Source: a virus. Taken from it: 37,583 bases of DNA. How positions within the stretch are numbered: position 1 is the stretch's first letter; each line of letters begins with the position of its first letter. Of the stretch, positions 4,586 to 29,485 are shown piece after piece. The position numbers and the translations under genes were made by a program. The DNA lies in the IMG/VR virus record IMGVR_UViG_3300043543_000547, positions 1 through 37,583 of that record, one strand, 5' to 3'. A model generated the notes under the pieces. That model ran no database searches and was not told the DNA's origin. It worked only from the letters and a program-made list of their open reading frames with translations.

Positions 4586-4614
4586 TTGACAAGCCTTTCT
4601 GGGGAGGGTAATAT
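4586..4614 (+). promoter_or_regulatory. Sigma-70-type promoter of the replication operon
   Basis: TTGACA at 4586-4591, 17 bases of spacer, and TAATAT at 4609-4614 give a near-perfect primary-sigma promoter. It sits just before the DNA polymerase fusion gene. The predicted transcription start (about 4620-4622) lies at or after the first candidate ATG, so a transcript from this promoter would be leaderless from the ATG at 4622 or need a further upstream start for the ATG at 4613. It is unlike both the cassette promoters and the late promoters, suggesting use of unmodified host polymerase early in infection (inference). Confidence 0.75.
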
Positions 4615-7012: not shown

Positions 7013-8396
7013 ACTCTTGAAGAAACTCCGAAAAGTAAAGAAGACATCTAACGGTTATCAGGCACTTTGCCCTGCCCACGACGACACCAGACCTTCACTG
7101 TCTATAGCCGAGCGAAACGGCTACGTTCTCGTTCACTGTTTCGCTGGTTGCGACGTTCAGAAAATTCTCAAGGCTTTAGACCTTCCCGTTTCCGTTCTGT
7201 TTCCTAAGAAAAAGAAAATCGTTTATCCCTACTACGACGAGAACGGAAAACTCCTCTTTGAGGTTGTAAGGGAAGGAAAGAAGTTCAGACAACGGATAAA
7301 GAAAGGGAAAACCCACGTTTATTCCCTCAACGGAGTTCCAAGGGTTCCTTTCAACCTTCCTGAAGTTCTCAAGGCAGTGAAAGAAAACAAAACCATTTAC
7401 CTTGTGGAAGGGGAAAAGGATGCCCTTTCCCTTATCTCCCTTGGGGTTACCGCAACCACCAATCCTGGTGGAGCCCTGAACAACCTGGAGACTCTGGTTC
7501 CCTATCTCAAAGGAGCAAAGGTTGTCATCCTCGTTGATAGAGACAAACCAGGCTACGAACGGGGAAAGAGACTGTTCAGACTTCTCAAACAAGTAGCGAG
7601 GGAAGTAAAAGTGATGGAGCCTCTGGAAGGAAAGGACATTACGGAGCACTTAGAACTTGGGTTTTCTCTGGGTGATATCGTCCCTCTGGGAAGGAAATAT
7701 CTTACGTTTGCCAGTGAAGTGGAAGAAGGGAAGATGGACTATCTCTGGTCTCCTTACTTCCCAACCAGTTTTACGCTCATTGACGGTTTTCCTGGAACGG
7801 GAAAGTCAACGCTTACAACCTTCTTAGTGGCAAAGTTTTCAAGAGGATTTACTCCCGAAGGGAAGAAACTCTCCTCTCCCAAGAAGTGCCTTATCATCTC
7901 TTATGAGGAAGACTACGGGAAAGTGATTTTACCGAAACTGAAGAAAATGGGAGCCAACTTAGACAACATAGCGTTTGGAAATTCCCCGCCACCTCTCCCT
8001 GAAGGGATTTCCGAACTTGAACTTATCATCAACGGTGGAGGTTTTGAGTTTGTTGTCATTGACCCTCTCTTTGGGGCTTTCTCTGAAGACGTGGAGATTT
8101 ATCAGGACGTCAAAGTGAAAAAACTCGTTTACTCCTTAGAAGCCCTGTGCAGAGAGTATGGAATTTGCATTGTCGGAGTAAGACACCGAACGAAATCCTC
8201 TCAGAAAAGCGATATAGCATTGGGTCTTGGAGGCATTGGCATTGCGGGAGGTGCTCGTTCTGTTCTTTACACCGAGAAGGTTCCTTCCAGGAAGGGGACA
8301 AAGGTATTCGTAACCCATATCAAAAACAACTATGGTGGAACGGGAAAACCTTTCTACCTCGTCATCACGGATAAGGAGGTAGCCATCAAACGATGA
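7005..8396 (+). CDS. Primase-helicase: CHC2-type zinc finger, TOPRIM and RepA-like ATPase
   Basis: A 463-residue protein starting at ATG 7005 (GGGGG eight bases upstream; ATG 6999 is an alternative) and overlapping the polymerase stop. Cys22, His25, Cys45 and Cys49 (CPAH and HCFAGC) form a DnaG-like zinc finger. TOPRIM motifs are LVEGEKDA (Glu135) and VILVDRD (Asp178, Asp180). The C-terminal half is a RecA-fold ATPase of the RepA/AAA_25 kind: Walker A GFPGTGKST (261-269), SYEEDYGK, and Walker B FVVIDPL. This combines primer synthesis and DNA unwinding for the polymerase encoded just before it, as T7 gp4 does, but with a RepA-type rather than DnaB-type motor. The final ATGA overlaps the nuclease gene. 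Confidence 0.9.
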   Translation: MNELLKKLRKVKKTSNGYQALCPAHDDTRPSLSIAERNGYVLVHCFAGCDVQKILKALDLPVSVLFPKKKKIVYPYYDENGKLLFEVVREGKKFRQRIKKGKTHVYSLNGVPRVPFNLPEVLKAVKENKTIYLVEGEKDALSLISLGVTATTNPGGALNNLETLVPYLKGAKVVILVDRDKPGYERGKRLFRLLKQVAREVKVMEPLEGKDITEHLELGFSLGDIVPLGRKYLTFASEVEEGKMDYLWSPYFPTSFTLIDGFPGTGKSTLTTFLVAKFSRGFTPEGKKLSSPKKCLIISYEEDYGKVILPKLKKMGANLDNIAFGNSPPPLPEGISELELIINGGGFEFVVIDPLFGAFSEDVEIYQDVKVKKLVYSLEALCREYGICIVGVRHRTKSSQKSDIALGLGGIGIAGGARSVLYTEKVPSRKGTKVFVTHIKNNYGGTGKPFYLVITDKEVAIKR

Positions 8397-9007
8397 ATAT
8401 CCCGAGAGTAACGGAAGTCTTACAGGTTTTCACTCTCCCTGCCATCCTCAAATGGCAACAGAGGATTGGAGAGGAAATGGCAGAAGAAATAAGGGAAGAA
8501 GCCCTTGGACTGGGAACGAAAGTGGACGGCTATGTGATGTCTCTCATTACGGGAGAGGATGTTGTCTTTCCCGAAGACGAAAACAGGATGGTAGTAAGAG
8601 CGGTTCAGAAGTTTGAGAAAGAATGGCTCCCTCACATAGAGGACGCTCTGGTTCAGGTTACGGGAACTCATCCGAACCCTCCCTACACGGGAACTGCCGA
8701 TTTGCTCTGCGTCCTTGGCGGGGAAAAATGGCTCATTGACATCAAGGTCGCTAAAGAGGTTCGTCCGACTTACGTTATCCAACTCTCCGCTTATTCACAA
8801 CTGGACACAATTGAGAAGTGGAAACCGAACCGATTTGGAATTCTTCTGTTTTCCAAGAAAGGAGGTTTCTGGGAACTCGTTGAGGTGTTTCCAGATGAAA
8901 CTCACTTTGACCTTTTCCTGTCTGCTCTCAAAGTCTACCAATACATCGTGGACTCTGAGGGGGCAGGAGCCTTTCAAACCTTGATACGGAGGACAAACAA
9001 TGCCTAA
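8393..9007 (+). CDS. PD-(D/E)XK exonuclease, RecB/Cas4-like
   Basis: This 204-residue protein has the core nuclease motifs in order: LGTKVDGYV (helix with a His/Gly-like position near 45), YTGTADLLCVL (Asp103), WLIDIKVAK (Asp116, Lys118), and YVIQLSAYSQL (Gln130, Tyr134) as in RecB-family motif QxxxY. Such phage proteins process DNA ends for recombination or degrade host DNA. It has no four-cysteine cluster, so it is not a full Cas4. It is translationally coupled to the helicase through an ATGA overlap and overlaps the next gene by eight bases. Confidence 0.85.
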   Translation: MNIPRVTEVLQVFTLPAILKWQQRIGEEMAEEIREEALGLGTKVDGYVMSLITGEDVVFPEDENRMVVRAVQKFEKEWLPHIEDALVQVTGTHPNPPYTGTADLLCVLGGEKWLIDIKVAKEVRPTYVIQLSAYSQLDTIEKWKPNRFGILLFSKKGGFWELVEVFPDETHFDLFLSALKVYQYIVDSEGAGAFQTLIRRTNNA

Positions 9008-9611
9008 GAACACTGACACCTACACTCGCAACGACGTTGACTTTGCCTACTACTACAGCCGAGGTTCTTTCCGAGTCTACGAGAACGACGAGGAAGAACT
9101 TGATGCTGTGGATGAAGTTCGGGGAAAACCCACTAAGTTCTCCATTGACCAGGACAATGCTTTTGGAGACAAGAGGTGGGTTTTCACCATTGACCTTGTG
9201 AACGAGGAGAAGGAAAAACTCATCCTTCGGGTGAGGCTCCATCTCTCCGACGACCCGTCCATAGACGATGTCTCCTGGTTTGCTATCGGTCTTCTGGGAC
9301 ATATGGCAAACCTTGAGGACTCCCAGTTCCTCACGTTCCAGGCAGAAGAACTGGAACCCAGGGATAGGCGGAGTCGCTTCTCTCTCTACCTTCCGAGGAT
9401 AAGGACGAGACGGGGCATCCTTCCCTGGGCATTTGAAAAGGGAACTCCCAAAGAGGAAGCCTACATTCAGGCTCTTACCAAACTTAGGAAACATCCCCTT
9501 TTCAATAAGAAAACCGCCAGAAACCTGGAAACCTGTCTCAAGGAGGCTAAGGGACTGAGCAATGCCAACCGTAAGCCTGCAAAAACTAAAGCATCTAAGA
9601 CCCGTCGTTGA
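9000..9611 (+). CDS. Hypothetical replication-operon protein with basic C-terminal tail
   Basis: A 203-residue protein with a GGAGG site before ATG 9000. Residues ~10-115 look beta-rich and acidic (YYYSRGSFRVYENDEEELDA, then WVFTIDLVNEEKEKLILRVRLHL), and the end is very basic (NRKPAKTKASKTRR). Its place beside the polymerase, primase and nuclease suggests a single-stranded DNA-binding or recombination-mediator role, but no family motif is visible. Most phage SSBs have an acidic rather than basic tail, which argues against a standard SSB. Its last 50 bases overlap the DnaA-like gene. Confidence 0.75.
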   Translation: MPKNTDTYTRNDVDFAYYYSRGSFRVYENDEEELDAVDEVRGKPTKFSIDQDNAFGDKRWVFTIDLVNEEKEKLILRVRLHLSDDPSIDDVSWFAIGLLGHMANLEDSQFLTFQAEELEPRDRRSRFSLYLPRIRTRRGILPWAFEKGTPKEEAYIQALTKLRKHPLFNKKTARNLETCLKEAKGLSNANRKPAKTKASKTRR

Positions 9612-9822
9612 GGCAACGGCAAAGGAGTTCGGGATGTCGCCCGAACTTCTCTATAAACCGACCTCTAAACGGGAAATAGTGGCAGTCCGTTATCTGGCAA
9701 TGCAGAGGCTCGTGGAACTCGGAGTTCCCGTCGCTACCATTGCGAGGCATTTCGGTTGCCACTACGACACCGTTCGCTATGCGATAGGGAGGAAAGACAA
9801 TGCACGTAAAAGACGCTCTTGA
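9562..9822 (+). CDS. Stand-alone DnaA domain IV-like DNA-binding protein
   Basis: An 86-residue protein that corresponds to only the C-terminal domain of DnaA. VEATAKEFGMSPELL, then SKREIVAVRYLAMQRLVEL, then PVATIARHFGCHYDTVRYAI match the pattern of domain IV (basic loop, R-x-IA-x-R-x-AM-x-L, and the helix-turn-helix signature with DHTTV, here CHYDTV). No ATPase part exists. It could bind DnaA-box-like sites at the phage origin or act as a competitor of host DnaA (inference). The final R-rich tail (NARKRRS) overlaps the next gene. The start sits after AAGGG with eight-base spacing. Confidence 0.8.
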   Translation: MPTVSLQKLKHLRPVVEATAKEFGMSPELLYKPTSKREIVAVRYLAMQRLVELGVPVATIARHFGCHYDTVRYAIGRKDNARKRRS

Positions 9823-10174: not shown

Positions 10175-10183
10175 TGGTGTATC

Positions 10184-10250
10184 TGTGTGTGTGTGCGTGC
10201 GTGCGTGAAGGAGTTACGGTTAAGAGTAAGCCCTACGGAAACTCCTTCAC
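10184..10250 (+). promoter_or_regulatory. GT tract and 11-bp inverted repeat upstream of cassette promoter 1
   Basis: Alternating GT-rich sequence runs from 10184 to 10207 with a few C interruptions. It is followed by an 11-base perfect inverted repeat, GTGAAGGAGTT (10205-10215) and AACTCCTTCAC (10240-10250). There is no T run after the hairpin, so it is not a classic terminator. The GT tract ends 59 bases before the promoter motif, similar to the other seven units (67-77 bases). Confidence 0.6.
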
Positions 10251-10266
10251 CACGCTTGCCCATCCC

Positions 10267-10283
10267 GAACCCGATACATATAA
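10267..10283 (+). promoter_or_regulatory. Cassette promoter motif, copy 1
   Basis: GAACCCGATACATATAA, identical to five other copies up to its last base. It lies 67 bases before the ATG at 10334 and is followed by the stem-loop 10290-10306 (GGAGCG, loop GTCAT, CGCTCC) at the expected 5' end of the mRNA, and then AAGGAGGTAA. CATATAA can serve as a -10-like box; no constant -35 box is visible. Confidence 0.75.
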
Positions 10284-10333
10284 GGAACAGGAGCGGTCAT
10301 CGCTCCGAAAACCCATCCCTAAGGAGGTAAACG

Positions 10334-11062
10334 ATGAAAGTAACGACATTGCCGACTGAACGGCTCATCACGTTCCCTAACCCGCAGTCTTCATTCCAGC
10401 GTCCGCCCGTAAGGGGACGGTGCAAGTTTGGAGACTACGGGGTCAACTCGCAACGCACCATCTCGGTGGTGGTTGCGGATGGCAAACTCTATGAGGTGTC
10501 AGAAAAAGACGACATCACCACTTCTCTGGAGGCGTTGCTGGCTCGGTTCAAAGACGACGCTCCTTCCCTTTTCATTCTCAAGAAGGATGTTGAGCGGTTT
10601 ATCAAAACGCTCTCCATCCTGCAGAGTGAAGAGGGCTACTCTCTCATTTCCGTCGTTGACGGAAAATTGAGCGGAATGACGGCGTCCCGTTCTCTGAGAG
10701 ACCATTACTACAACCTCTCAGAGGCTCCCGTGGTCATCAAGGAGTTTCGCACGAACGTCCTTGACTTAGGAAACAGGACGTCGGAGTTCCCCGTTCTTCC
10801 TTTCTCCGCTTCTCTCCTGACAGAAGTGTTCAGGAGACTAAAGACAGCGGAGGTGGAAAAGACGGGAATGTCCATCTTTACCGCTCCTGATGAGAGAAAC
10901 CCTGGCGGGAGTTTCGTTCTCTTTGCCACCGAGGCTCCCCACACTGTCCTTGCTATCCTTTCAGAAAAGCAGAAAGAGTGGTGCTATCCTTTTGTGATGG
11001 TGCTTACGCTCACTGCTTTTCGGGACACCGTGGAGAGTTTCATTGAGGAGGCAAGGAAGTGA
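10334..11062 (+). CDS. Hypothetical protein, first gene of the multigene accessory operon
   Basis: A 242-residue protein with AAGGAGGTAA before the ATG. It is a mixed alpha/beta sequence without catalytic motifs; regions such as SLISVVDGKLSGMTASRSL and SIFTAPDERNPGGSFVLFAT look like paired beta strands. A sliding-clamp-like (DnaN) fold crossed my mind because of its neighbours and size, but nothing in the sequence confirms it. It shares a four-base GTGA overlap with the next gene, which starts with GTG. Confidence 0.75.
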   Translation: MKVTTLPTERLITFPNPQSSFQRPPVRGRCKFGDYGVNSQRTISVVVADGKLYEVSEKDDITTSLEALLARFKDDAPSLFILKKDVERFIKTLSILQSEEGYSLISVVDGKLSGMTASRSLRDHYYNLSEAPVVIKEFRTNVLDLGNRTSEFPVLPFSASLLTEVFRRLKTAEVEKTGMSIFTAPDERNPGGSFVLFATEAPHTVLAILSEKQKEWCYPFVMVLTLTAFRDTVESFIEEARK

Positions 11063-11493
11063 GTGAGTTCAAGCACGTTGTCCTTGTCAAGGTGCTTGAG
11101 CATCCTGTTACGGGAGAACTCCGTGTCGTGAAACTTGGACGATATTACTTCCCTGAATATCTGATAAAAGGGTTTCAGGAGGATGGCTATATCGTCTTTC
11201 ACGACACGGAGGATTTAAGCCACGACCCCGTAATAGGGAAACTCCCCGAAGTGAGAAAGTGGCTTGAAAATCCTGCATCGGAGGTGCCTATGCTGTGTGA
11301 AAACTGCGGAAGGAAACTGAACTCCAGCGAACCTGCCTGTCTCTTTTGTGAAGACAGGTATGTCTGCGATAGGTGCCAGGGGGAGTTTGACCTCTCAAGG
11401 GTCATACTCTTACACGACCTTGGCGTCTATCTCTGCCTGGAGTGTTTTGAAACAACAAGCGGTGTCCTTGAGGAGGTGAGCGATGACGAATGA
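11059..11493 (+). CDS. Zinc-binding protein with multiple Cys pairs
   Basis: A 144-residue protein starting with GTG at 11059. The N-terminal ~75 residues are a beta/alpha region. The C-terminal half has CENC, CLFC, CDRC and CLEC, four CxxC pairs that can hold two zinc ions in a treble-clef or RING-like arrangement (LCENCGRKLNS..., YVCDRCQGEF). The role is unknown; nucleic-acid or protein binding is likely. Its stop overlaps the next start by eleven bases. Confidence 0.75.
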   Translation: MSEFKHVVLVKVLEHPVTGELRVVKLGRYYFPEYLIKGFQEDGYIVFHDTEDLSHDPVIGKLPEVRKWLENPASEVPMLCENCGRKLNSSEPACLFCEDRYVCDRCQGEFDLSRVILLHDLGVYLCLECFETTSGVLEEVSDDE

Positions 11494-11776
11494 CTTTGAG
11501 AGTGCTACCTACAGGGTGGTGATGGAACTTCTGCAAAGAGCGTTAGACGCTTATAAGCAGAACGAGACCACCAAAGAGGAGTATCACTCTGCTGTCTGTC
11601 TCGTCATCACCTTTCTCACGACACTCTACGCTACACGCTACACTCAGAAACCTGCGGAGTTTATCGCCCAATGCACTGCTTTGATGGCAGATACTCTCCG
11701 CAGAAATCAAATACCGACGGAGGTGAAAAGTGATGGCGGACACTCACAAAGCCCTGAACCTGAAAAGGATGATTGA
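11483..11776 (+). CDS. Hypothetical small helical protein
   Basis: A 97-residue helical protein (YRVVMELLQRALDAYKQNE, then CLVITFLTTLYATRYTQK) with a polar acidic tail (SPEPEKDD). GGAGGTGA precedes the ATG. The middle is hydrophobic but short for a membrane span. No family recognised. It overlaps the next small gene by 44 bases. Confidence 0.65.
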   Translation: MTNDFESATYRVVMELLQRALDAYKQNETTKEEYHSAVCLVITFLTTLYATRYTQKPAEFIAQCTALMADTLRRNQIPTEVKSDGGHSQSPEPEKDD

Positions 11777-11957
11777 GGAGTTCCATCAGGTAGATGTGGA
11801 AGCCTACGGCGAAGGAACTGCAAGGAGAATACTTGCAACTCTCATTGCAGTTATTGTCCAGAAGCACTGGGCACTTCCCGACGAGGAAGTAGGTGCTATC
11901 GTCGCAGGGATTGAACACATCCGCCAGGAACTCGCAGGGAAAGTAAATCCTAACTAA
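11733..11957 (+). CDS. Hypothetical small helical protein
   Basis: A 74-residue protein from ATG 11733, chosen over the GTG at 11730 because GGAGGTG at 11719-11725 has seven-base spacing to the ATG. It is all helical (LNLKRMIEEFHQVDVEAY, TARRILATLIAVIVQKHW). It has a similar size and hydrophobic pattern to the preceding gene, but clear homology cannot be claimed by eye. Confidence 0.65.
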   Translation: MADTHKALNLKRMIEEFHQVDVEAYGEGTARRILATLIAVIVQKHWALPDEEVGAIVAGIEHIRQELAGKVNPN

Positions 11958-11967
11958 GGAGGTGCCT

Positions 11968-12171
11968 ATGAAACTCTCAACCTGGGATACCATAGAGGTT
12001 ACAGGAGAAGCGACCGTTACCGTAAGAGGCTATATAAGGGTTGAGTGCTTTGAATGCCATTGCCTTCTACGCTTCAAAGTGCTTCACTCCAAAGACGGTG
12101 AGGTCGTTATCCAGGTGGAGCCTTGCGGTAACTGCATAGAGGAAGCCGTTGCTCAATCTCACGGAGAGTAA
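11968..12171 (+). CDS. Small zinc-ribbon-like protein
   Basis: A 67-residue protein from ATG 11968 with AAGGAGG five bases upstream; a GTG at 11962 lies inside that ribosome site and is rejected as a start. ECFECHCLL and PCGNC supply two Cys pairs for a zinc ribbon, separated by beta strands (RFKVLHSKDGEVVIQVE). It is the last gene of the 10334-12171 operon. No strong terminator follows, only a weak hairpin near 12206-12223 (TCTCG and CGAGA). Confidence 0.7.
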   Translation: MKLSTWDTIEVTGEATVTVRGYIRVECFECHCLLRFKVLHSKDGEVVIQVEPCGNCIEEAVAQSHGE

Positions 12172-12250
12172 CGGTGTGTGTGCATACGGGTTCGGGGTTT
12201 CTCGTTCCTTGCGAGAGAGTAAGAGGTGATGAGCCTTTTACTTTGACCCC

Positions 12251-12267
12251 GAACCCGATACATATAA
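12251..12267 (+). promoter_or_regulatory. Cassette promoter motif, copy 2, with upstream GT tract
   Basis: GAACCCGATACATATAA. The GT tract is at 12174-12182, ending 68 bases upstream. The stem-loop at 12273-12291 (GGGAGCG, loop GAAAT, CGCTCTC with one G-T pair) follows six bases after the motif, then AGGAGGT at 12307-12313 and ATG at 12322. Confidence 0.75.
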
Positions 12268-12321
12268 AAGACGGGAGCGGAAATCGCTCTCAAAACTCTA
12301 CATTCCAGGAGGTAAAGACTG

Positions 12322-12741
12322 ATGCCGAAACTGACCGTAGACCTGTTGCTACCGAACCAGGTAGAAGTCTGGTGCCACGTCAAACCGAAAACTCCGCCTG
12401 ACTGCCTCATCGCTGGCTACGGTGGAGTTTCTCTGATGAGAGAGAACAAACTCTATGACCTCAGCCCTGATGACCCGCTTGTTCTGAAAGGTATCAGGCT
12501 TGCTGGTCTTGTTTATTCCGCCCTTCTTCTCGGTGCCGTGAGAGCCAGGGAAAGAGGCAAAGAGGCGTTGCATCCCTCTGTTCTCAACAACGGTGTAGTA
12601 TCCTGGGAAGGAGGGCTCGGAACTCTGCAGGTTATAGAGGACAATCACGAAACCCATCTGACCGTTCCTGATGAGTTGCTTGCGGAACTTCGCAAGAGTG
12701 CCCGAAGCCTCGTCAAGGAATGGGTGAACAAAGACCTATAA
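12322..12741 (+). CDS. Hypothetical accessory protein
   Basis: A 139-residue protein, first gene of a three-gene unit. It has a central hydrophobic helix (IRLAGLVYSALLLGAV) and a C-terminal charged helix (LAELRKSARSLVKEW). The overall layout, strands followed by a helix, a 'GTLQVIED' strand and a tail, loosely resembles the small accessory paralogues downstream, but the similarity is not convincing. No family recognised. Confidence 0.7.
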   Translation: MPKLTVDLLLPNQVEVWCHVKPKTPPDCLIAGYGGVSLMRENKLYDLSPDDPLVLKGIRLAGLVYSALLLGAVRARERGKEALHPSVLNNGVVSWEGGLGTLQVIEDNHETHLTVPDELLAELRKSARSLVKEWVNKDL

Positions 12742-12760
12742 CAACAGGAGGTAATGCACA

Positions 12761-13084
12761 ATGAGAGCAACACTCTCTCTACCTGCCAACGTTCACCTTT
12801 ACACTCTCCTTGAGAGAGTGAAAGAGGTGTTCTATCCTTCCGCTCTGTCGCACATCTCTTTCAGTGCTGACTGGGATGAGAATGGCGATATCAGGTTGTT
12901 TGTTGAGTGGGAGGGGATAGCCTCTGTCAATCGGAACGTAGAGTTCGCCGTTCAACTCGTGAAGGCATCTGCCATAGATGCGGGAACGCTCAGTCTCTAT
13001 GAGCAGACTTCCAGTGGTGAATGGCAACTCTACCGACACTACGTTGTCGTGGTGGGAACTGCTGAAACTGCGGAGGTGCGATGA
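12761..13084 (+). CDS. Accessory protein family A, copy 1
   Basis: A 107-residue protein with AGGAGGTAA ahead of the ATG. It is clearly paralogous to the gene at 15777: shared positions include a LY-x-L...R-(V/L)-(K/R)-E start, SFS-D, (E/D)W-GI, NVEFA--L, (V/I)D-GTL--YE, and RHYV-V near the end. It is predicted as alpha/beta with no catalytic motif. The function is unknown; its place among self-contained early-type cassettes suggests a host take-over or counter-defence role (inference). Its stop overlaps the next ATG. Confidence 0.75.
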   Translation: MRATLSLPANVHLYTLLERVKEVFYPSALSHISFSADWDENGDIRLFVEWEGIASVNRNVEFAVQLVKASAIDAGTLSLYEQTSSGEWQLYRHYVVVVGTAETAEVR

Positions 13085-13413
13085 TGAAAGAACTCATCGG
13101 TGCCGACATAGAGTTTCAGTGGAACTCGCCTTTCAGTCTCAATCGGTTGTTTCACTTTATCGCTCTTGCGATGGAGGAAACAATCTATGAGGTGCCTCTG
13201 GAGACCATACAGCAAATCTCCTGCTACCGTATTTATAGTAGCGACGGGAACTTTGCAGTATGGGTTGAGGGAGTAACACCCGAATGGGTAGATACCTTCG
13301 CTATCGCTCTTGCACGGTTTCTCGGAGAAGTGCGAGTTCTCTTGAACCGTAAAGAGAATGGCGAATGGGTTTGCATTGAAGACAGGGTTGTTACTCACCT
13401 TCCCAGAGAGTAA
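13081..13413 (+). CDS. Accessory protein family C, copy 1
   Basis: A 110-residue acidic protein; the start is ATG 13081 (or 13084) after GGAGGTG, overlapping the previous stop. It aligns at moderate level with 14093: SP--L near the start, then SSDGNFAVWVEG against TVDGEWLIYVKS, and RKENGEW-C-ED against REGNGDVVARED. The same plan (DG-strand, helix, V-strand, NGE turn) is seen in family A, so A and C may be one superfamily. It is the last gene before the strong terminator at 13424. Confidence 0.7.
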   Translation: MMKELIGADIEFQWNSPFSLNRLFHFIALAMEETIYEVPLETIQQISCYRIYSSDGNFAVWVEGVTPEWVDTFAIALARFLGEVRVLLNRKENGEWVCIEDRVVTHLPRE

Positions 13414-13423
13414 CTATCCGCAA

Positions 13424-13455
13424 GGCGGGAGAGTTTTTCTCCCGCCTTTTTTTTT
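13424..13455 (+). terminator. Rho-independent terminator of the three-gene unit
   Basis: Stem GGCGGGAGA (13424-13432) with TCTCCCGCC (13438-13446), five-base loop, followed by nine T. Confidence 0.95.
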
Positions 13456-13569
13456 ATTTAACTCTCTTTACGTATAAAACGGTTATAAATAAATTAGATA
13501 ACGGTAAGGACGTAAATGTAGGTATAGATAAGTATACGTATAGGTATAGGTAGTCAATACGTATGATAG

Positions 13570-13623
13570 GCTATAGTCGGTTAAGACGCTATAGTCAGTT
13601 AAGACGCTATAGTCAGTTAAGAC
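13570..13623 (+). repeat. Three tandem 18-bp repeats
   Basis: GCTATAGTCAGTTAAGAC occurs at 13588-13605 and 13606-13623, with a one-base variant (GTCGG for GTCAG) at 13570-13587. The 18-base period keeps the units at nearly the same helix face every 1.7 turns, as in iterons. Confidence 0.9.
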
Positions 13624-13682
13624 GCACTCTTGCGTTTTAAACGCTACAAGTAACTATGATTAGCGTAAGGAACGCAAATCTA

Positions 13683-13728
13683 ACGCAACTTTACGTTAAT
13701 ATACGTTACATAGCGTATAAAAGCGTAT
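13683..13728 (+). repeat. 46-bp direct repeat, copy 1
   Basis: Begins ACGCAACTTTACGTTAATAT. The first 26 bases are identical to 13755-13780, and the remaining 20 differ at few positions (13781-13800). Copies are offset by 72 bases. Confidence 0.85.
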
Positions 13729-13754
13729 TAAATAGCGTATGAATACGCATATAG

Positions 13755-13800
13755 ACGCAACTTTACGTTAATATACGTTATATAACGTATAAAAACGTAT
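13755..13800 (+). repeat. 46-bp direct repeat, copy 2
   Basis: Partner of 13683-13728. The first 26 bases are identical, then a near-identical block rich in ACGTATAAAA. Confidence 0.85.
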
Positions 13801-14058
13801 GTAAAGGAGCGTTTTTGCGTTAATGTAATAATAAAATATCCATAATATTAGTATCTTTACCTGCTTATGTCAACGTAAGAGTAAAAACTATACGTGTAGT
13901 ATAAGTATCCTCAGGGCTTTATGTTTAAATTACCTACTCATAACTGTTACAGTAACGTTATTACTATCAGTATTAGTGTGTGTGTGTGTTGTGTTATGTC
14001 TTTCTACTATCAGTAATTACCGTAACAGTAAAAGAGTAAAGAGACTTTAGGGTTTTGG

Positions 14059-14075
14059 GAACCCGATACATATAA
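14059..14075 (+). promoter_or_regulatory. Cassette promoter motif, copy 3
   Basis: GAACCCGATACATATAA, with a GT tract 69 bases upstream (13976-13989). This unit has a very short leader: only 17 bases, including GGAGGTAAACG, separate the motif from ATG 14093, and there is no stem-loop. Confidence 0.75.
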
Positions 14076-14092
14076 GAGGTAGGAGGTAAACG

Positions 14093-14416
14093 ATGGAACT
14101 GAACCTTGAGTCCCCGCTCCCATTGGGAGAAACAGTAAGCATCATATCCGCTCTACTGTCAGTAGAGGAACTGGCAGTAAGAGGGAAAACTGTAGACGGA
14201 GAGTGGCTGATATACGTAAAGTCCGCTCCCGTTGAGAGAGAGACTGTCGTATTCCTGGCGACGCTTTTAAGACAAAAAGCAATCGCCGTTTACGACAGGG
14301 AAGGTAACGGGGATGTTGTGGCAAGAGAAGACATCCCCGATAACGAATGGTTGGGAATACCCTTTGACGGTAGATACTTCTACCGTCCGAGGTATCTTCC
14401 TCTAAGTGAAGAGTAA
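14093..14416 (+). CDS. Accessory protein family C, copy 2
   Basis: A 107-residue acidic protein in a single-gene unit, with AGGAGGTAA before the ATG. It resembles 13081 (see that entry) over most of its length, then has its own C-terminal extension rich in Tyr/Phe/Arg (GIPFDGRYFYRPRYLP). Predicted alpha/beta; no catalytic motif. Own promoter and own terminator. Confidence 0.7.
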   Translation: MELNLESPLPLGETVSIISALLSVEELAVRGKTVDGEWLIYVKSAPVERETVVFLATLLRQKAIAVYDREGNGDVVAREDIPDNEWLGIPFDGRYFYRPRYLPLSEE

Positions 14417-14422
14417 CTTTAC

Positions 14423-14466
14423 AGAGTGAGTAGTAACGGTAACGTTACTGCTCACTCTTTTTTTTT
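14423..14466 (+). terminator. Terminator with 16-bp stem
   Basis: AGAGTGAGTAGTAACG (14423-14438), four-base loop, CGTTACTGCTCACTCT (14443-14458), with one G-T pair, then a run of nine T ending at 14466. The top of the stem is built from the same GTAAC/GTTAC words that repeat in the following spacer. Confidence 0.95.
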
Positions 14467-14474
14467 GTGCCATA

Positions 14475-14528
14475 CCGTAACTGTAACTGTAACCGTTACT
14501 GTAACGGTAAGTGCGTGTGTGTGTGTGT
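14475..14528. repeat. GTAAC hexamer repeats followed by GT tract
   Basis: GTAACT, GTAACT, GTAACC, GTTACT, GTAACG in near-perfect six-base phase from about 14477 to 14509, then a GT tract at 14511-14528 that ends 67 bases before the next promoter motif. Confidence 0.85.
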
Positions 14529-14595
14529 TCTTCCCGTCTCTCCCTCTTTGAGTGAAACTCTTACAGTAACTCTTTTACTGTCGTCTACCGAACTG

Positions 14596-14612
14596 GAACC
14601 CGATACATATAA
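14596..14612 (+). promoter_or_regulatory. Cassette promoter motif, copy 4, with leader stem-loop
   Basis: GAACCCGATACATATAA. The leader stem CAGTGG (14620-14625), loop AAATT, CCACTG (14631-14636) follows, then GACTACTA and AGGAGGTAA. A second CAGTGG directly precedes the left arm and could pair instead. Confidence 0.75.
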
Positions 14613-14659
14613 GCAGTGGCAGTGGAAATTCCACTGACTACTATCACAGGAGGTAACCG

Positions 14660-14914
14660 ATGCCTAAGACTAAAAAGTCTGAAGGCGAACCGTTTACCCC
14701 TGAAGGTTTACGTTCGGGGAAACAGTTGCAGTTACGTAACTGCGTAAACTGCAACCGTCCCATTGAAGGTAAACCCCTTGCAGTTATCATACACCGCTAC
14801 GGCTTTGATAAAGCCCGTGTAGCGGGTGTATGCAATCGCAAGGACTGCTTGAAAGTTCTTTGCGAAAGACTGCAAGAATGGGGGTGGCGGTTCCGCAACT
14901 GGAACGATAAGTAA
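14660..14914 (+). CDS. Small zinc-finger-like accessory protein
   Basis: An 84-residue basic protein. CVNC near residue 28-31 and CNRKDC plus a further Cys near 57-67 form a likely zinc site around a beta hairpin (PLAVIIHRYG). The C-terminus is Trp/Arg-rich (EWGWRFRNW). It is a single-gene unit with its own promoter, leader stem-loop and terminator. Nucleic-acid binding is plausible; no family recognised. Confidence 0.7.
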   Translation: MPKTKKSEGEPFTPEGLRSGKQLQLRNCVNCNRPIEGKPLAVIIHRYGFDKARVAGVCNRKDCLKVLCERLQEWGWRFRNWNDK

Positions 14915-14923
14915 CTAACCCGC

Positions 14924-14956
14924 AGGGGTGCGATAAATTCGCACCCCTTTTTTTTT
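14924..14956 (+). terminator. Rho-independent terminator
   Basis: AGGGGTGCGA (14924-14933), five-base loop, TCGCACCCCT (14939-14948), then T to 14956. Confidence 0.95.
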
Positions 14957-15084
14957 ACCGTTACCGTTACTGTAACTGTAACTGTAACCTTTACCCTTGC
15001 CCGTGTGTGTGTGCCTTTGTTCTTTCTCCCCCTGCCGTTACTGTAACTGTAACCGTTACCCTACACCGTTACTGTGTGTGTGTG
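14957..15084. repeat. GTAAC/GTTAC hexamer repeats with two GT tracts
   Basis: Two blocks of six-base GTTACC/GTAACT words (about 14957-14990 and 15037-15072) alternate with GT tracts (15003-15012 and 15074-15084). The second GT tract ends 76 bases before the next promoter motif. Confidence 0.8.
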
Positions 15085-15160
15085 CTGTCGGGTTCTTCTC
15101 CCCCTTTCCAAGGGAGCCTGACGGGAACCTTTCCATAAAATCATAAAGCCTTTGGCGTCC

Positions 15161-15177
15161 GAAGCCGATACATATAA
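15161..15177 (+). promoter_or_regulatory. Cassette promoter motif, copy 5, with leader stem-loop
   Basis: GAAGCCGATACATATAA (one change from consensus). Leader stem CAGTGGC (15185-15191), loop GATAA, GCCACTG (15197-15203), then GACTACTA and GGAGGTG before ATG 15226. Confidence 0.75.
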
Positions 15178-15225
15178 GCATTGGCAGTGGCGATAAGCCA
15201 CTGACTACTAACTGGAGGTGTAGAG

Positions 15226-15462
15226 ATGCCAGAAGAAGTAATGGCATTCTTAGACCATCCCAACCCCGCCGACCAGGTGGGGGAGGTGGTCTATGAAATC
15301 GTTGTCAACACCCGTGGCGGGTATGACGGTTACTGCACCGTCATTGGCGAAGTAGCCGAACAACTTTTTATGCTACTTCGCCTGTTTGGAGTTCCCATCG
15401 TCCTGGCGAAGTGGGAACCCAATAACCCGCCCGTGGTGCTTGGCTACGCAAACATAGCGTAG
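15226..15462 (+). CDS. Accessory protein family B, copy 1
   Basis: A 78-residue acidic protein, clearly paralogous to 16315: both have FL-HP-PAD near the start, V-EI strands, then QL--LLRLF, A-(K/R)WEP--PP-V and a Tyr near the end. It is predicted as a compact alpha/beta fold with a central helix. No known family and no catalytic residues. Single-gene unit with own promoter and terminator. Confidence 0.75.
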   Translation: MPEEVMAFLDHPNPADQVGEVVYEIVVNTRGGYDGYCTVIGEVAEQLFMLLRLFGVPIVLAKWEPNNPPVVLGYANIA

Positions 15463-15470
15463 CCTGAGAT

Positions 15471-15518
15471 AGACGCTACTGTAACGGTTCTATACCGTTC
15501 GGTAGCGTCTTTTTTTTT
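15471..15518 (+). terminator. Rho-independent terminator with extended stem
   Basis: AGACGCTAC (15471-15479) pairs with GTAGCGTCT (15502-15510). Inside it, AACGGT and ACCGTT extend the hairpin around a short loop. T run to 15518. Confidence 0.95.
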
Positions 15519-15642
15519 GGCTACCGTTACCGTTACTGTAACCGTTACCGTTACAATACCCTACCCCGAACCTACCCCGAAACATAACCCGCCGTTCCTG
15601 TCCGTGTGTGTGTGTCTTTGTGGTGGTGTCTTTGTGTGTGTG
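15519..15642. repeat. GTTAC hexamer repeats, CCCCGAACC repeats and GT tracts
   Basis: GTTACC/GTTACT/GTAACC words from about 15522 to 15555, a short repeat of TACCCCGAA (about 15561-15582), and GT-rich tracts at 15604-15615 and 15634-15642. The last tract ends 72 bases before the next promoter motif. Confidence 0.8.
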
Positions 15643-15714
15643 GCTTGTGGTGGTGTCTCCCTTTCCCTGCCGTTTCCCGCTTTGTGGTCGTCTCCATAGA
15701 ATAAAATCCGAACC

Positions 15715-15731
15715 GAACCCGATACATATAA
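15715..15731 (+). promoter_or_regulatory. Cassette promoter motif, copy 6, with leader stem-loop
   Basis: GAACCCGATACATATAA. Leader stem CAACGG (15739-15744), GAAA tetraloop of the GNRA type, CCGTTG (15749-15754), then GACTAT and AGAGGTGA before ATG 15777. Confidence 0.75.
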
Positions 15732-15776
15732 GCATTGGCAACGGGAAACCGTTGACTATCAACAAGAGGTGATACG

Positions 15777-16067
15777 ATGACTGCACAACTCAACGTTCCA
15801 CTAATTCCCTTATACGTCCTTTTCGGACGCTTGAGGGAGTTCCAGTTGTGGGCTGACCTTGTTTTCCTGTCCTTTTCTGAGGACGGAGAACGGACACTGA
15901 TTGACTGGTCGGGAATTAACGACCTTAACGGTAACGTAGAGTTCGCCAGCAACCTGATAAGGTTGCTTGGTGTAGATGTCGGAACGTTAGACGTTTACGA
16001 AAACGGAGAAACGCTCCGACACTACGTTATTGTAACCGTTCCCGCCAGCGAACCTGCACGGGTGTAA
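15777..16067 (+). CDS. Accessory protein family A, copy 2
   Basis: A 96-residue paralogue of 12761 (see that entry for the shared positions), about ten residues shorter because of deletions in two loops. Own promoter, leader stem-loop with a GNRA loop, and terminator, whereas its paralogue is the second gene of a three-gene unit. This indicates duplication and movement between cassette slots. Function unknown. Confidence 0.75.
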   Translation: MTAQLNVPLIPLYVLFGRLREFQLWADLVFLSFSEDGERTLIDWSGINDLNGNVEFASNLIRLLGVDVGTLDVYENGETLRHYVIVTVPASEPARV

Positions 16068-16076
16068 CCCATAGAC

Positions 16077-16112
16077 GGCGGGTGGAATTTTCCACCCGCC
16101 ATTTTTTTTTTT
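16077..16112 (+). terminator. Rho-independent terminator
   Basis: GGCGGGTGGAA (16077-16087) pairs with TTCCACCCGCC (16090-16100), with the A/T pairs at the top forming the loop, then A and eleven T. Confidence 0.95.
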
Positions 16113-16119
16113 GTTTTAC

Positions 16120-16204
16120 CCTACACTAACACTAACACTAATAGTTACCCTGCCAGTATCCGTGTGTGTGTGTTTCTGGTGTCTCCCTCTCTCCCGTGTG
16201 TGTG
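16120..16204. repeat. ACTAAC hexamer repeats and GT tracts
   Basis: ACTAAC words repeat three times (about 16126-16141), followed by GT tracts at 16162-16172 and 16196-16204. The second GT tract ends 73 bases before the next promoter motif; the stretch in between is strongly pyrimidine-rich. Confidence 0.75.
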
Positions 16205-16277
16205 CCCTGGGGGTTCCCGTCTTCCTTTCCCTTCCCCCAAAAACCCTCTCAATAGAATTCTTTTTAGGATAAAGCCC

Positions 16278-16294
16278 GAAGCCGATACATATTG
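16278..16294 (+). promoter_or_regulatory. Cassette promoter motif, copy 7 (degenerate 3' end)
   Basis: GAAGCCGATACATATTG: the last two bases of the usual TATAA are lost and the leader is short, 20 bases, with AGGAGGTG and no stem-loop. The GT tract is 73 bases upstream. This is probably the weakest of the eight copies if TATAA is the core. Confidence 0.65.
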
Positions 16295-16314
16295 GAAGTG
16301 TAGGAGGTGTAACG

Positions 16315-16557
16315 ATGCAACATCTACTCCCATTTCTGGAACATCCTTCCCCTGCTGATACTCTTGGAGTATCAGTCTGGGAAATCATCATCAGGTTCCC
16401 ATCGGACGATGGAAGCCATTTCATCTATCGTGGCTTCGTAACTGATAGCGAATACGTTGCGTATCAATTGTATTCGCTTCTCAGACTTTTCGCTCCAGTT
16501 GTCTGGGCACGATGGGAGCCTGGGCTTCCGCCAATAGTTGTAGACTACTCAGTCTAA
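16315..16557 (+). CDS. Accessory protein family B, copy 2
   Basis: An 80-residue paralogue of 15226 (FLEHPSPAD against FLDHPNPAD; ARWEPGLPPIV against AKWEPNNPPVV; LLRLF in both). The first codons and the middle strand differ, so the copies are old. AGGAGGTG precedes the ATG at 16315. Single-gene unit. Confidence 0.75.
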   Translation: MQHLLPFLEHPSPADTLGVSVWEIIIRFPSDDGSHFIYRGFVTDSEYVAYQLYSLLRLFAPVVWARWEPGLPPIVVDYSV

Positions 16558-16562
16558 ACTAT

Positions 16563-16596
16563 AAGCCCATCCGAGCAATCGGATGGGCTTTTTTTT
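16563..16596 (+). terminator. Rho-independent terminator
   Basis: AAGCCCATCCGA (16563-16574), loop GCAA, TCGGATGGGCTT (16579-16590), T run to 16596. Confidence 0.95.
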
Positions 16597-16898
16597 GTTT
16601 ATGGCTACCCATCGTGCGTTATTCGCAAAATTATATGCAGTGCTCTAATTCTTCTTCCAATCCGAGTTATTCCCCCATCGTGCGTGCGTGTGCGTGTGTC
16701 TTTTGTGTCTCGTGTTTTTATAAACACTATCACTGCTTATGCTTTTGCGTTTACGCATACGCATACGCATCTAACTTCTCTATCACTTTCGCTTATCGCT
16801 ATCGCTCCCGTGTGTGTGTGTTGCGTGGGTCTGGGTCTCCCGTCCCCATCTCCCCCATCGCTGGCACTCAATATAATTCATTTTTGACTTTGACGTCC
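16597..16898. repeat. Long inter-cassette spacer with ACGCAT repeats and GT tracts
   Basis: About 300 bases without a gene. It holds GT/GC-rich alternating sequence near 16680-16700, ACGCAT repeated about three times (near 16755-16770), TATCGC repeats (about 16795-16806), a GT tract at 16810-16821, then a pyrimidine-rich stretch leading to promoter copy 8. Open frames across it consist of these repeats and are not credible genes. Confidence 0.7.
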
Positions 16899-16915
16899 GA
16901 ACCCGATACATATAG
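16899..16915 (+). promoter_or_regulatory. Cassette promoter motif, copy 8, with leader stem-loop
   Basis: GAACCCGATACATATAG. Leader stem CAACGGC (16923-16929), loop AAT, GCCGTTG (16933-16939), then GACTACTA and GGAGGTAA. GTCAATGGC just upstream can pair with the same right arm (GCCGTTGAC), giving a competing nine-base stem. Confidence 0.75.
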
Positions 16916-16964
16916 TCAATGGCAACGGCAATGCCGTTGACTACTACACCTATGGAGGTAACGT

Positions 16965-17102
16965 ATGGCTCACTACTACCCACTCCCGATTGTATCACTG
17001 GTAGCAGTGATACTTTGCCTCGCTGACTATCTCCATCCAGGCTGGGTTGGAGTGGCAGTGGTGTTTGACCTTATCGTTGGTCTGGCAAACCAAGATAAGT
17101 AG
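16965..17102 (+). CDS. 45-residue membrane protein in the last cassette
   Basis: ATG at 16965 follows TGGAGGTAACGT and the frame ends with TAG at 17100-17102. The product begins MAHYYPLPIVSLVAVIL, continues LADYLHPGWVGVAVVFD and ends LIVGLANQDK: two short hydrophobic helices joined by an HPGW turn. The gene has the full cassette arrangement (GT tract, promoter copy 8, stem-loop, ribosome site, terminator), which makes it credible despite its size. Possible roles include superinfection exclusion or membrane-targeted inhibition (inference). Confidence 0.75.
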   Translation: MAHYYPLPIVSLVAVILCLADYLHPGWVGVAVVFDLIVGLANQDK

Positions 17103-17110
17103 GTAGCATA

Positions 17111-17145
17111 TGGAGCGTGCATCTGCACGCTCCATTTTTTTTTTT
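17111..17145 (+). terminator. Rho-independent terminator closing the cassette array
   Basis: TGGAGCGTGCA (17111-17121), two-base loop, TGCACGCTCCA (17124-17134), then eleven T. Confidence 0.95.
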
Positions 17146-17754: not shown

Positions 17755-17784
17755 TTGAAACTGAAAGAGCCTTCTTTACGTCTA
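17755..17784 (+). promoter_or_regulatory. Putative late promoter P1 (terminase)
   Basis: TTGAAAC (17755-17761), 16 bases, ACGTCTA (17778-17784), seven bases before the GTG start of the small terminase gene. The same two boxes with exactly the same spacing occur before the capsid gene and before the ejection-protein genes. The gene start has no Shine-Dalgarno sequence, so the mRNA may be nearly leaderless. Confidence 0.65.
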
Positions 17785-17791
17785 TGGAACT

Positions 17792-18499
17792 GTGAAGGTT
17801 GGTAAGAAATCCCATTCCCCTGACAATAGAGAAGGACGGGTTCCAAGGGATAAGTTTGGGAACTACCCTAAAAGGTATTCCAAACCCGTTGACGTTTCTT
17901 TAGGGAGGATAGCCCCTGATGTGATAAGGGACAAATCCCTTATCGGGAAATCCCTCCTTGAGGAAGTAGCCTCCGAGATTGCGGTGTTTCTCAAGGAGGA
18001 AGTAGGGATTGATGAGTTTGCAGACCTTGAGTATCTCTCTAAGGAGAACTTCTCCGAACCCTGGATGGGAAAGTTCCTTTACGCTTTTATAAGACTTGGC
18101 TCTATCACCGAAGCGGGAAAATGCGTCGGGGTTTCTTCTTTTGAGATACTGAAACACTTAAACTCCGATGAGGTTTTTAGACGCTACTATGAAGACGCTA
18201 AAGTCATTCGTTCCGACAAACTCCTCTCAGAAGCCTTTGAAAGAGCCGTTCACGGAGTCAAGGAGTTTTACTTCAGAGACGGTAAGTTGGTAAGGGACGA
18301 AAAGGGCTTACCCCTTATGGTTTCACGGTATAACGACGACCTTCTCAAGTTCCTCCTTAAGGCTTTAGTTCCCGCTTTTCAGGAGAAACTGGAAGTGGAA
18401 CACTCTGGAGTGGTAGAAACTAAAGTGGTGTTTCAGAAAGTAGACGGAATTGAGGAATATGCAGAAAGAGTTTCTAAGGGACATCGCCACTCTCTCTGA
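17792..18499 (+). CDS. terS: Terminase small subunit
   Basis: A 235-residue protein that would recognise phage DNA for packaging. The N-terminus is basic and flexible. Residues ~100-135 (YAFIRLGSITEAGKCVGVSSFEIL) form a helix-turn-helix of the kind found in small terminases. The segment AFERAVHGVKEFYFRDGKLVRD followed by RYNDDLLKFLLKALVP is a frequent C-terminal pattern of TerS proteins linking to the large subunit. Start is GTG at 17792. It overlaps the large subunit gene, the typical terS-terL order. Confidence 0.85.
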   Translation: MKVGKKSHSPDNREGRVPRDKFGNYPKRYSKPVDVSLGRIAPDVIRDKSLIGKSLLEEVASEIAVFLKEEVGIDEFADLEYLSKENFSEPWMGKFLYAFIRLGSITEAGKCVGVSSFEILKHLNSDEVFRRYYEDAKVIRSDKLLSEAFERAVHGVKEFYFRDGKLVRDEKGLPLMVSRYNDDLLKFLLKALVPAFQEKLEVEHSGVVETKVVFQKVDGIEEYAERVSKGHRHSL

Positions 18500-19859
18500 A
18501 GAACAACTCAATGCGGTAAGGGCTACCCATCTCTTTCGCTTTGTCTTAATGGGTGCTTCGTCAGGTTGCGGAAAAACGAGAACCCTCGTTGCCTGGTGTG
18601 CCTATCAAAATATGCTTGCTTCGTCGGTAGGCATTCCAGGCTCAAGGATAAACACCGCTCTTATGGCAAGGGACGCTACGCTTGTGATTTCAAGGTTTGA
18701 GCGAGAGGTGAAAGAACTCCTCATAGAGTCGGGTCTCGGAGAAGTAAAGGGAGCCACGAAACTCTCCCCGCACGCTTTTCATTTCTTTGACAAAAGGCTC
18801 GGGAAAATTGTCTTCTGGTCTTTATACGACATTGAGGATTTGAGAGGTCAGGAATTCATTGCGGTAGGGATTGACGAACTCACGGAAGTTCCCGAAGAAG
18901 CCTTCCACGCTGTTAACTGGCGTGTTCGGTATTTTGGAAAAGCCCCTTATAAAGCCTCCATCCTCTCCGCCACGAACCCCGATGGGGCTTATAGAGACTG
19001 GGTCAAAGCCTACTTCGTGGATAAGACCTTTGATACTCCGATGGGAGAAAACATCAAGGATTTGAAAGACGAGTTTCACTATATCCCGATGACGCTCTCG
19101 GCTAACCCCGATGAAAAGGCACGGGAGGAGTATAGAAAAATCCTTATGTCCTTGCCCGAACACCTCAAAAGAGCAAGGCTTTACGCAGACTGGGATACCG
19201 CCGTGGGAGCGAGGTTCCCCTACTCCTTCAAACTCGTAGACAGGCTCCCGCCTGTGGTAAAGGAAGCAAGAGGCTTGGACTGGGGGTTTGCGAAGGAAAA
19301 ATTCGCTTGCGTATGGGTGGCGAAAGACGAGGAGAACAACTTCTACGTAACGAAGGTCTACAAAGGCGGAAACCTCACCCTTTCCCAGGCAGGGAGGCTT
19401 ATAAGGGAACTCTCGGAAGGGAAGAAAATGCCAACCTTTGCTGACCCTACGATGTTTTCTCAACGGGAACCCCATTCTCTTTACACCCTGGATGCCTACT
19501 TTATGAAGGAAGGGGTTCCGCTTATTCCTTCTACCAATAACCACCTCATCACGAACTCCCTCATAGAGCATCTCCTTGAAAATGGAAAGTTGTTCTTTGT
19601 AAGGGGCGAAACGGAAGCCCTTCTTAGAGACCTCACGGCAGTTCGTTATGGAGAAGGAGCAAACCCTGAAAACCTTATTCCCCACGAGCACACCGATACC
19701 GTCTACGCTCTTGGGTATGCCCTTTATGGGCTTGCCCCTTATGGGGTAAAACAACCTGAACCAAAACTCAACTATTATTCGTCTCAAGATTTGAGGAAAC
19801 TCATCTATGCGGAAATCAAGAAAACCCACTTCGGCGAAAAAATTACGAGACCCGTTTGA
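18459..19859 (+). CDS. terL: Terminase large subunit (ATPase and nuclease)
   Basis: A 466-residue packaging motor. Walker A is GASSGCGKT (32-40), Walker B is VGIDELTE (Asp139, Glu140), and the coupling motif is SATNPDG (170-176). The C-terminal RNase H-like nuclease has GLDWGF (Asp274), FADPT (Asp329) and EHTDTVYALGYAL (Asp413). ATG 18459 is preferred over TTG 18450, since TGAGG lies just before it. It translocates DNA into the prohead through the portal encoded at 20649 and cuts the concatemer. Confidence 0.95.
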   Translation: MQKEFLRDIATLSEEQLNAVRATHLFRFVLMGASSGCGKTRTLVAWCAYQNMLASSVGIPGSRINTALMARDATLVISRFEREVKELLIESGLGEVKGATKLSPHAFHFFDKRLGKIVFWSLYDIEDLRGQEFIAVGIDELTEVPEEAFHAVNWRVRYFGKAPYKASILSATNPDGAYRDWVKAYFVDKTFDTPMGENIKDLKDEFHYIPMTLSANPDEKAREEYRKILMSLPEHLKRARLYADWDTAVGARFPYSFKLVDRLPPVVKEARGLDWGFAKEKFACVWVAKDEENNFYVTKVYKGGNLTLSQAGRLIRELSEGKKMPTFADPTMFSQREPHSLYTLDAYFMKEGVPLIPSTNNHLITNSLIEHLLENGKLFFVRGETEALLRDLTAVRYGEGANPENLIPHEHTDTVYALGYALYGLAPYGVKQPEPKLNYYSSQDLRKLIYAEIKKTHFGEKITRPV

Positions 19860-22965: not shown

Positions 22966-22991
22966 AACTTTTTCCTGTCTTCCGACGTCTA
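22962..22991 (+). promoter_or_regulatory. Putative late promoter P2 (capsid)
   Basis: CTGAAAC (22962-22968), 16 bases, ACGTCTA (22985-22991). The first box overlaps the stop of the scaffold gene. It lies 94 bases before the capsid ATG, leaving room for the large hairpin at 22999-23069 in the leader. Confidence 0.65.
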
Positions 22992-22998
22992 TAGAAGC

Positions 22999-29476: not shown

Positions 29477-29485
29477 CAAAAATGT

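Follow-up and report, generated by a model that had tools for sequence, protein, structure and literature searches.

The stretch of DNA analyzed here, which we call the window, is the whole IMG/VR record IMGVR_UViG_3300043543_000547 (37,583 bases), from an uncultivated tailed phage that is probably podovirus-like. Between its replication genes and its packaging genes lies an array of eight units, A to H, each headed by a copy of one promoter-like motif. Eight sites related to GAACCCGATACATATAA are found, all on the + strand from 10267 to 16915, and none elsewhere in the record. Allowing up to three mismatches, 0.04 such sites are expected by chance, and none of 100 shuffled sequences reached eight. 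Five copies are exact and the others carry one, one, and three mismatches, at the places where an earlier sequence-only reading of this DNA had put them:

10267–10284, + strand, promoter-like motif of unit A, exact
12251–12268, + strand, promoter-like motif of unit B, exact
14059–14076, + strand, promoter-like motif of unit C, exact; no hairpin, Shine-Dalgarno (SD) site starts at 14081
14596–14613, + strand, promoter-like motif of unit D, exact
15161–15178, + strand, promoter-like motif of unit E, one mismatch
15715–15732, + strand, promoter-like motif of unit F, exact
16278–16295, + strand, promoter-like motif of unit G, three mismatches; no hairpin, SD site starts at 16302
16899–16916, + strand, promoter-like motif of unit H, one mismatch

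The motif has an 18-bp core (GAACCCGATACATATAAG), in which columns 0–14 are invariant except for column 3 (C or G). The column information drops sharply at both edges, with only a weak CC left upstream. The eight units share no hexamer at the −35 position, and the motif contains only a −10-like TATAAG. Since the phage carries a canonical sigma-70-type promoter, TTGACA-17-TAATAT, 5′ of its PolA gene, the predicted array promoters seem to belong to another class than at least one promoter-like site of the same phage. A sigma-28-like interpretation (CCGATA) was rejected, as no TAAA −35 lies at the required distance. Matches to the motif among 2.9 million viral contigs and 84,980 genomes are single and scattered only, which suggests that it is phage-specific. 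Indeed, the 17-mer AACCCGATACATATAAG occurs at only eight single places in a GTDB-wide scan, and this argues against a host promoter consensus. The search of viral contigs for the 17-base motif, which the sequence-only reading had proposed, gave two exact and 56 relaxed matches; all are single unrelated places, and we discarded them as relatives of the array.

Each motif is followed by a strong ribosome site and a gene or operon, as had been claimed: in all eight units a GGAGG-type site starts 11–15 nt before the ATG. The motif itself ends 17–54 nt upstream of the ATG, and a complete SD, distinct from it, lies in between. The six single-gene units that had been described (C to H) are all present.

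10334–12171, + strand, unit A operon of five genes (10334–11062, 11059–11493, 11483–11776, 11733–11957, 11968–12171)
12322–13413, + strand, unit B operon of three genes (12322–12741, 12761–13084, 13081–13413), the second a paralogue of F
14093–14416, + strand, gene C, 107 codons
14660–14914, + strand, gene D, 84 codons, cysteine-rich product (zinc-binding-like, by eye), weak coding score
15226–15462, + strand, gene E, 78 codons, predicted bb-a-bb fold, paralogue of G
15777–16067, + strand, gene F, 96 codons, predicted ferredoxin-like fold, paralogue of the second gene of unit B
16315–16557, + strand, gene G, 80 codons, paralogue of E
16965–17102, + strand, gene H, 45 codons, hydrophobic product (membrane-like, by eye)

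The products span 45–242 amino acids (aa). In a simple codon test the annotated frame came out on top of the six in 12 of the 14 array genes; the exceptions are D, where a reverse frame scores 0.24 and the annotated one −0.01, and the second gene of A (0.22 versus 0.36), and the fifth gene of A is nearly tied. Paralogous contents, as proposed earlier, are found for two pairs: F matches the second gene of unit B (37% identity, 1e-16) and G matches E (42% identity, 1e-17), but most of the genes are unrelated in sequence. The two pairs imply that units duplicate. Profile comparison gave no sign of kinship between the E/G and F pairs, and placing C and the third gene of unit B in one family with F found no support. 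Pfam and PHROGs returned weak or no matches, and no function, for the array genes scanned. Structure prediction, suggested as a check in the sequence-only reading, could be carried out for E and F, with fair AlphaFold2 models (predicted local distance difference test scores, pLDDT, of 85 for E and 78 for F). The strand order of the E model is bb-a-bb, and a core of this kind is common to both models. The fold searches provided no functional lead, however: nothing significant was obtained with E, and the top match of F is to ferredoxin-like folds, mainly designed proteins (best E 0.002).

Intrinsic terminators, each a hairpin followed by 8–11 T, are predicted by scanning and folding (−20 to −27 kcal/mol) after seven units, B to H, and each of these units has a distinct one. 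All seven had been announced as perfect hairpins; the terminators are there, but only six of the seven stems are perfect, that of E having one bulged base. No terminator was found in the scan of unit A (10267–12171), and A and B are therefore probably one transcription stretch with an internal promoter.

13422–13455, + strand, terminator of unit B
14423–14466, + strand, terminator of unit C
14924–14957, + strand, terminator of unit D
15471–15518, + strand, terminator of unit E, one bulge
16077–16112, + strand, terminator of unit F
16563–16596, + strand, terminator of unit G
17110–17145, + strand, terminator of unit H

Folding places a leader hairpin directly 3′ of the motif in six units:

10290–10306, + strand, leader hairpin of unit A (GGAGCG-GTCAT-CGCTCC), z −1.8
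12273–12291, + strand, leader hairpin of unit B, z −2.4
14620–14636, + strand, leader hairpin of unit D (CAGTGG...CCACTG), z −3.1
15185–15203, + strand, leader hairpin of unit E
15739–15754, + strand, leader hairpin of unit F (CAACGG-GAAA-CCGTTG)
16923–16939, + strand, leader hairpin of unit H (CAACGG...CCGTTG)

The stems of D, E, F, and H take two forms, CAGTGG/CCACTG and CAACGG/CCGTTG, which differ by two compensatory pair changes; their stem cells are 100% paired, versus 14–50% for slid versions. These four leaders are 71–79% identical, and the stem of A and B is a different one (GGAGCG/CGCTCY). Rfam gave sub-threshold matches only. In all eight units either the hairpin core (six units) or the SD (C and G) starts 22–24 bases after the motif start. 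If TATAAG (offsets 12–17) is a −10 element, then +1 would fall at about offset 24 and the stem would stand at the 5′ end of the RNA or within a few bases of it, while in C and G the RNA would begin practically at the SD. The RNA pyrophosphohydrolase of Bacillus subtilis acts only if two or more bases at the 5′ end are unpaired, and in Escherichia coli mRNA is stabilized by 5′-terminal stem-loops (PMC3997798 and references therein).

The spacers upstream of the motifs contain GT tracts. All 21 matches to GTGTGTGTG in the record lie inside the array and on the + strand, versus 0.1 expected on either strand. The tracts nearest to the motifs are:

10185–10206, + strand, GT tract of unit A, pure GT to 10195 and GC-interrupted to 10206; the pure part ends 72 bp before the motif
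12174–12182, + strand, GT tract of unit B
13976–13989, + strand, GT tract of unit C
14511–14528, + strand, GT tract of unit D
15074–15084, + strand, GT tract of unit E (additional tract at 15003–15013)
15634–15642, + strand, GT tract of unit F (additional tract at 15604–15615)
16196–16204, + strand, GT tract of unit G (additional tract at 16162–16173)
16810–16821, + strand, GT tract of unit H

From A to H, the nearest tract ends 72, 69, 70, 68, 77, 73, 74, and 78 bp from the motif. A range as narrow as these 10 bp (68–78) was seen in none of 200,000 random placements within the gaps, a count to be read knowing that the tracts were picked after having been seen and that the units partly share ancestry. 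Most spacer pairs are at the identity level of shuffled sequence (mean 0.56 versus 0.53 shuffled), so the distance appears to be held without conservation of the sequence. Between terminator and GT tract lie tandem hexamers, which differ from gap to gap (GTAACT, TTACCG, TACCGT, ACACTA, TACGCA, and CTATCG; positions 14470–14510, 14955–14995, 15522–15554, 16123–16141, and 16752–16806). Both kinds of repeat, already noted between the units from the sequence alone, are confined to array gaps. The shared promoter-leader-terminator architecture that had been proposed is thus real and highly nonrandom, but it is not complete in every unit, given that A lacks a terminator and that only six leaders have a hairpin.

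Judging from these sequence patterns, we think it more likely than not that the array is an accessory module of eight units driven by one phage-specific promoter class and producing transcripts that are small, stable, and separately terminated. TATAAG would be the −10 element of the host RNA polymerase, and the 12 bases 5′ of it (GAACCCGATACA), perhaps with the GT tract too, would replace the −35. A phage-encoded or phage-modified initiation factor would recognize this promoter, and the units would fire as one regulon. RNA would start at or near the hairpin, which would shield the 5′ end from decay, while the terminators would limit the length of each message and keep the late genes insulated. 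The small proteins, among them the bb-a-bb and ferredoxin-like duplicates, would be produced quickly and abundantly, and may act on the host, in take-over or counter-defense. Units may multiply by duplication, aided by the repeated motif and GT tracts. Only tentatively do we suggest a stricter version, in which the promoter is bipartite, with a required (GT)n tract 68–78 bp upstream of a −10-only core. A phage factor would read this tract, the mRNAs would start with a 5′ hairpin, and eight messages, each short, stable, and ending at a separate terminator, would come on together as one regulon. That a bipartite promoter class of this kind has not been described before is conceivable, and we propose it with the same reserve.

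Several observations weigh against the proposal of a phage-specific promoter class. Promoter function is assigned from position and pattern, and the record yielded neither a sigma factor nor an activator, a helix-turn-helix gene at 9562–9822 being a candidate only. The two compensatory changes amount to a single split (D and E versus F and H) among related leaders, so that the covariation evidence for the hairpin is modest, and letter shuffles among the four leader sequences reached the pairing score in 14 of 500 cases. Spacer pairs GH (z 5.9) and EH (z 4.1) exceed the shuffled identity. With shared ancestry of leaders D, E, F, and H and of some spacers, the units are not independent, and their uniformity is partly descent. 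Finally, searches of viral contigs, GTDB genomes, and phage records turned up no relative of the array.

Other explanations can be offered for the same features. The motif could be the promoter of a phage-encoded single-subunit (T7-like) RNA polymerase, with the start at the G after TATAA. A contiguous block of 17–18 bp ending in TATA-AG and lacking a −35 fits such promoters, and the replication genes (family A polymerase, primase-helicase, and exonuclease) resemble the T7 type; the authors of the phage 0305phi8-36 study argued similarly for a 21-bp motif, leaving open whether phage or host polymerase reads it (PMC2147016). We nevertheless find this rather unlikely. Pfam and PHROGs revealed no RNA polymerase among the proteins scanned, including that of an 1838-aa open reading frame (ORF) left open in the record, and no pair of motif B and motif C occurs in the six frames outside the PolA gene. 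The record ends could be joined in frame (a one-in-three chance), which would leave little space for a missing gene. Moreover, the identity to the T7 promoter (9/18, P about 0.14) is not significant, and the leader elements start at offset 22–24 and not at 17, which mildly disfavors a T7-like polymerase. It is also quite improbable, in our opinion, that the array is mainly a recombination platform, in which ordinary host promoters, together with the shared motif, GT tracts, and terminators, allow cassettes to be swapped. Promoter and terminator do stand on either side of each gene, the two paralogue pairs are spread over different units, the repeats occur only in gaps, and most array genes are without relatives found. 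However, the collections searched contain no relatives in which exchange could be seen, the motif has no host-promoter −35 and is not a recurrent host sequence, and recombination does not need a fixed GT-tract spacing. Such swapping would be compatible with the favored promoter-based explanation and not exclusive of it.

The constant sense orientation of the motif 5′ of a start codon would also suit an element acting at the level of RNA or translation, like the start-associated sequences (SAS) of Cluster K mycobacteriophages. We give this very little weight, since SAS lie 3–9 bp from the start (PMC11373665), whereas the motif ends further from the ATG and is followed by an SD of its own; the hairpin directly 3′ and the GT tract at a fixed distance fit DNA-level initiation. 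Hardly credible is the idea that the uniformity is a mere trace of recent tandem duplication of one unit, with parts under no selection. The likeness of leaders D, E, F, and H, the spacer pairs GH and EH above the shuffled level, and the two paralogous pairs are what it would predict, yet most genes are unrelated and most spacers are at the shuffled level, while the motif is exact in five units and the spacing is kept.

The array, as we see it, looks like an unusually uniform version of known host take-over clusters. The host take-over module of Bacillus phage SPO1 was reportedly described by Stewart et al. in 1998. It is a cluster of 26 small genes in a terminal region, with early promoters; the promoters and ribosome sites are of the kind seen in strongly expressed genes, and the products were shown to inhibit the host (PMC6873191). 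The array is likewise a cluster of small genes with repeated promoter-like motifs and strong SD sites. It differs in that it comprises eight units between replication and morphogenesis genes, has no conserved −35, and carries the fixed-distance GT tract and the 5′ hairpin; action on the host is only proposed here, and no sequence relatives of known module proteins were found, since Pfam and PHROGs matches were weak or absent and three array proteins gave no tblastn match in the phage records. In 0305phi8-36, a 21-bp phage-specific promoter motif occurs in 14 gaps, and small genes sit on apparent monocistronic transcripts, some ending in a hairpin and T run; along one genome arm its copies are interspersed with other promoters, and that phage has a putative polymerase gene (PMC2147016). 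The likeness, by description and not by motif sequence, lies in a repeated phage-specific motif in gaps (14 there, eight here), which in our case is not a recurrent element of bacterial genomes (GTDB-wide scan). Unlike that motif, ours is confined to the array.

The promoter-early stem-loop (PeSL) cassettes of T4-like phages were reportedly described by Arbiol in 2010 and Comeau in 2014. PeSL promoters are host sigma-70-like early promoters. The array resembles them in having a stem-loop terminator, predicted for seven units, in the same gap as a promoter, but it lacks a −35 and has a distinct terminator in each of these seven units. PeSLs are described as pairing a promoter with a stem-loop terminator in the gaps that separate small accessory genes (PMC4503421), and they have been proposed to serve as shared homology for gene-cassette swaps between T4-like phages. 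In Cluster K, the SAS is a 13-bp element overlapping the ribosome site, and the ESAS, which contains a putative promoter in seven places, has −35 and −10 hexamers and an inverted repeat (PMC3203893, PMC11373665). These too are short repeated sequences 5′ of many accessory genes, but the array motif stands further from the ATG and has no −35 hexamer. T7-like promoters share with the motif a contiguous conserved core of similar length, the lack of a −35, and TATA plus a purine start; no polymerase gene was found in the record, possibly incomplete, and the similarity to the T7 consensus falls short of significance. Because it fails on the −35, on position, and on the missing polymerase gene, respectively, we did not assign the array to PeSLs, SAS, or T7-like promoters. 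The claim of an undescribed system goes too far, since chains of small genes, monocistronic for the most part and equipped with strong promoters and ribosome sites, are known in SPO1 (PMC6873191) and 0305phi8-36 (PMC2147016), and PeSLs are a further case (PMC4503421). The array stands out by how uniform it is, by its lack of a −35, by a GT tract held at a fixed distance, and by the 5′ hairpin.

To look for relatives, viral contigs were queried with terminase, PolA (two queries), capsid, and two paralogue alignments, and genomes with the primase-helicase. Seven tblastn queries (PolA, terminase, portal-like, tail-like, and three array proteins) were run against 50,697 phage records, including SPO1-like phages. 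The sole matches obtained from these queries are distant ones to PolA and terminase (24–32% identity). The three array proteins had no match in the phage records, the two paralogue alignments found no relative in viral contigs, and neither did the array DNA in phage records. The phage is thus without a close relative in the collections searched. If our proposal is true, the motif marks co-regulated phage genes without known relatives, most likely acting on the host. The short, uniform parts (core, hairpin, and terminator) would make a clean test case for initiation without a −35 and for the stabilization of small messages, and the fixed-distance GT tract would be a new and easily tested feature.

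Around the array, a single ORF at 4586–7012 combines an N-terminal uracil-DNA glycosylase superfamily domain and a family A DNA polymerase; it is followed by a primase-helicase (6921–8396) and an exonuclease (8393–9007). The TTGACA-17-TAATAT site (within 4586–4624) stands directly 5′ of ATG codons at 4613 and 4624, with no space for a ribosome site, and a leaderless message for the polymerase gene is possible. The terminase large subunit is encoded at 18450–19859; downstream of it are putative portal, capsid, tail, and very long virion proteins, assigned by gene order and size. A very long virion-like ORF (32069–37583) is open at the right end, and a left-end frame (1–470) would extend it in register if the record ends abut. 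Although joining in register is a one-in-three coincidence, the record may be a nearly complete, permuted genome.

A TTTACGTCTAT-like box lies 5′ of three late gene blocks (17775–17789, 22985–22996, and 29467–29481); a second, late-promoter class built on the box TTTACGTCTA was statistically too weak and was dropped. Just upstream of the array, 9562–9822 encodes an 86-aa protein with a DnaA domain IV-like helix-turn-helix, a candidate regulator. DnaA boxes were considered as its targets and rejected, as they show no excess (six counted versus 6.1 expected). Within the array, 13450–14058 is a 609-base A+T-rich noncoding stretch with iteron-like repeats and palindromes, among them an 18-mer present three times (13570–13625) and a 46-mer at 13683 and 13755 (93% alike). 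The cumulative GC skew has its maximum at 14–15 kb, and this stretch is a candidate replication origin.

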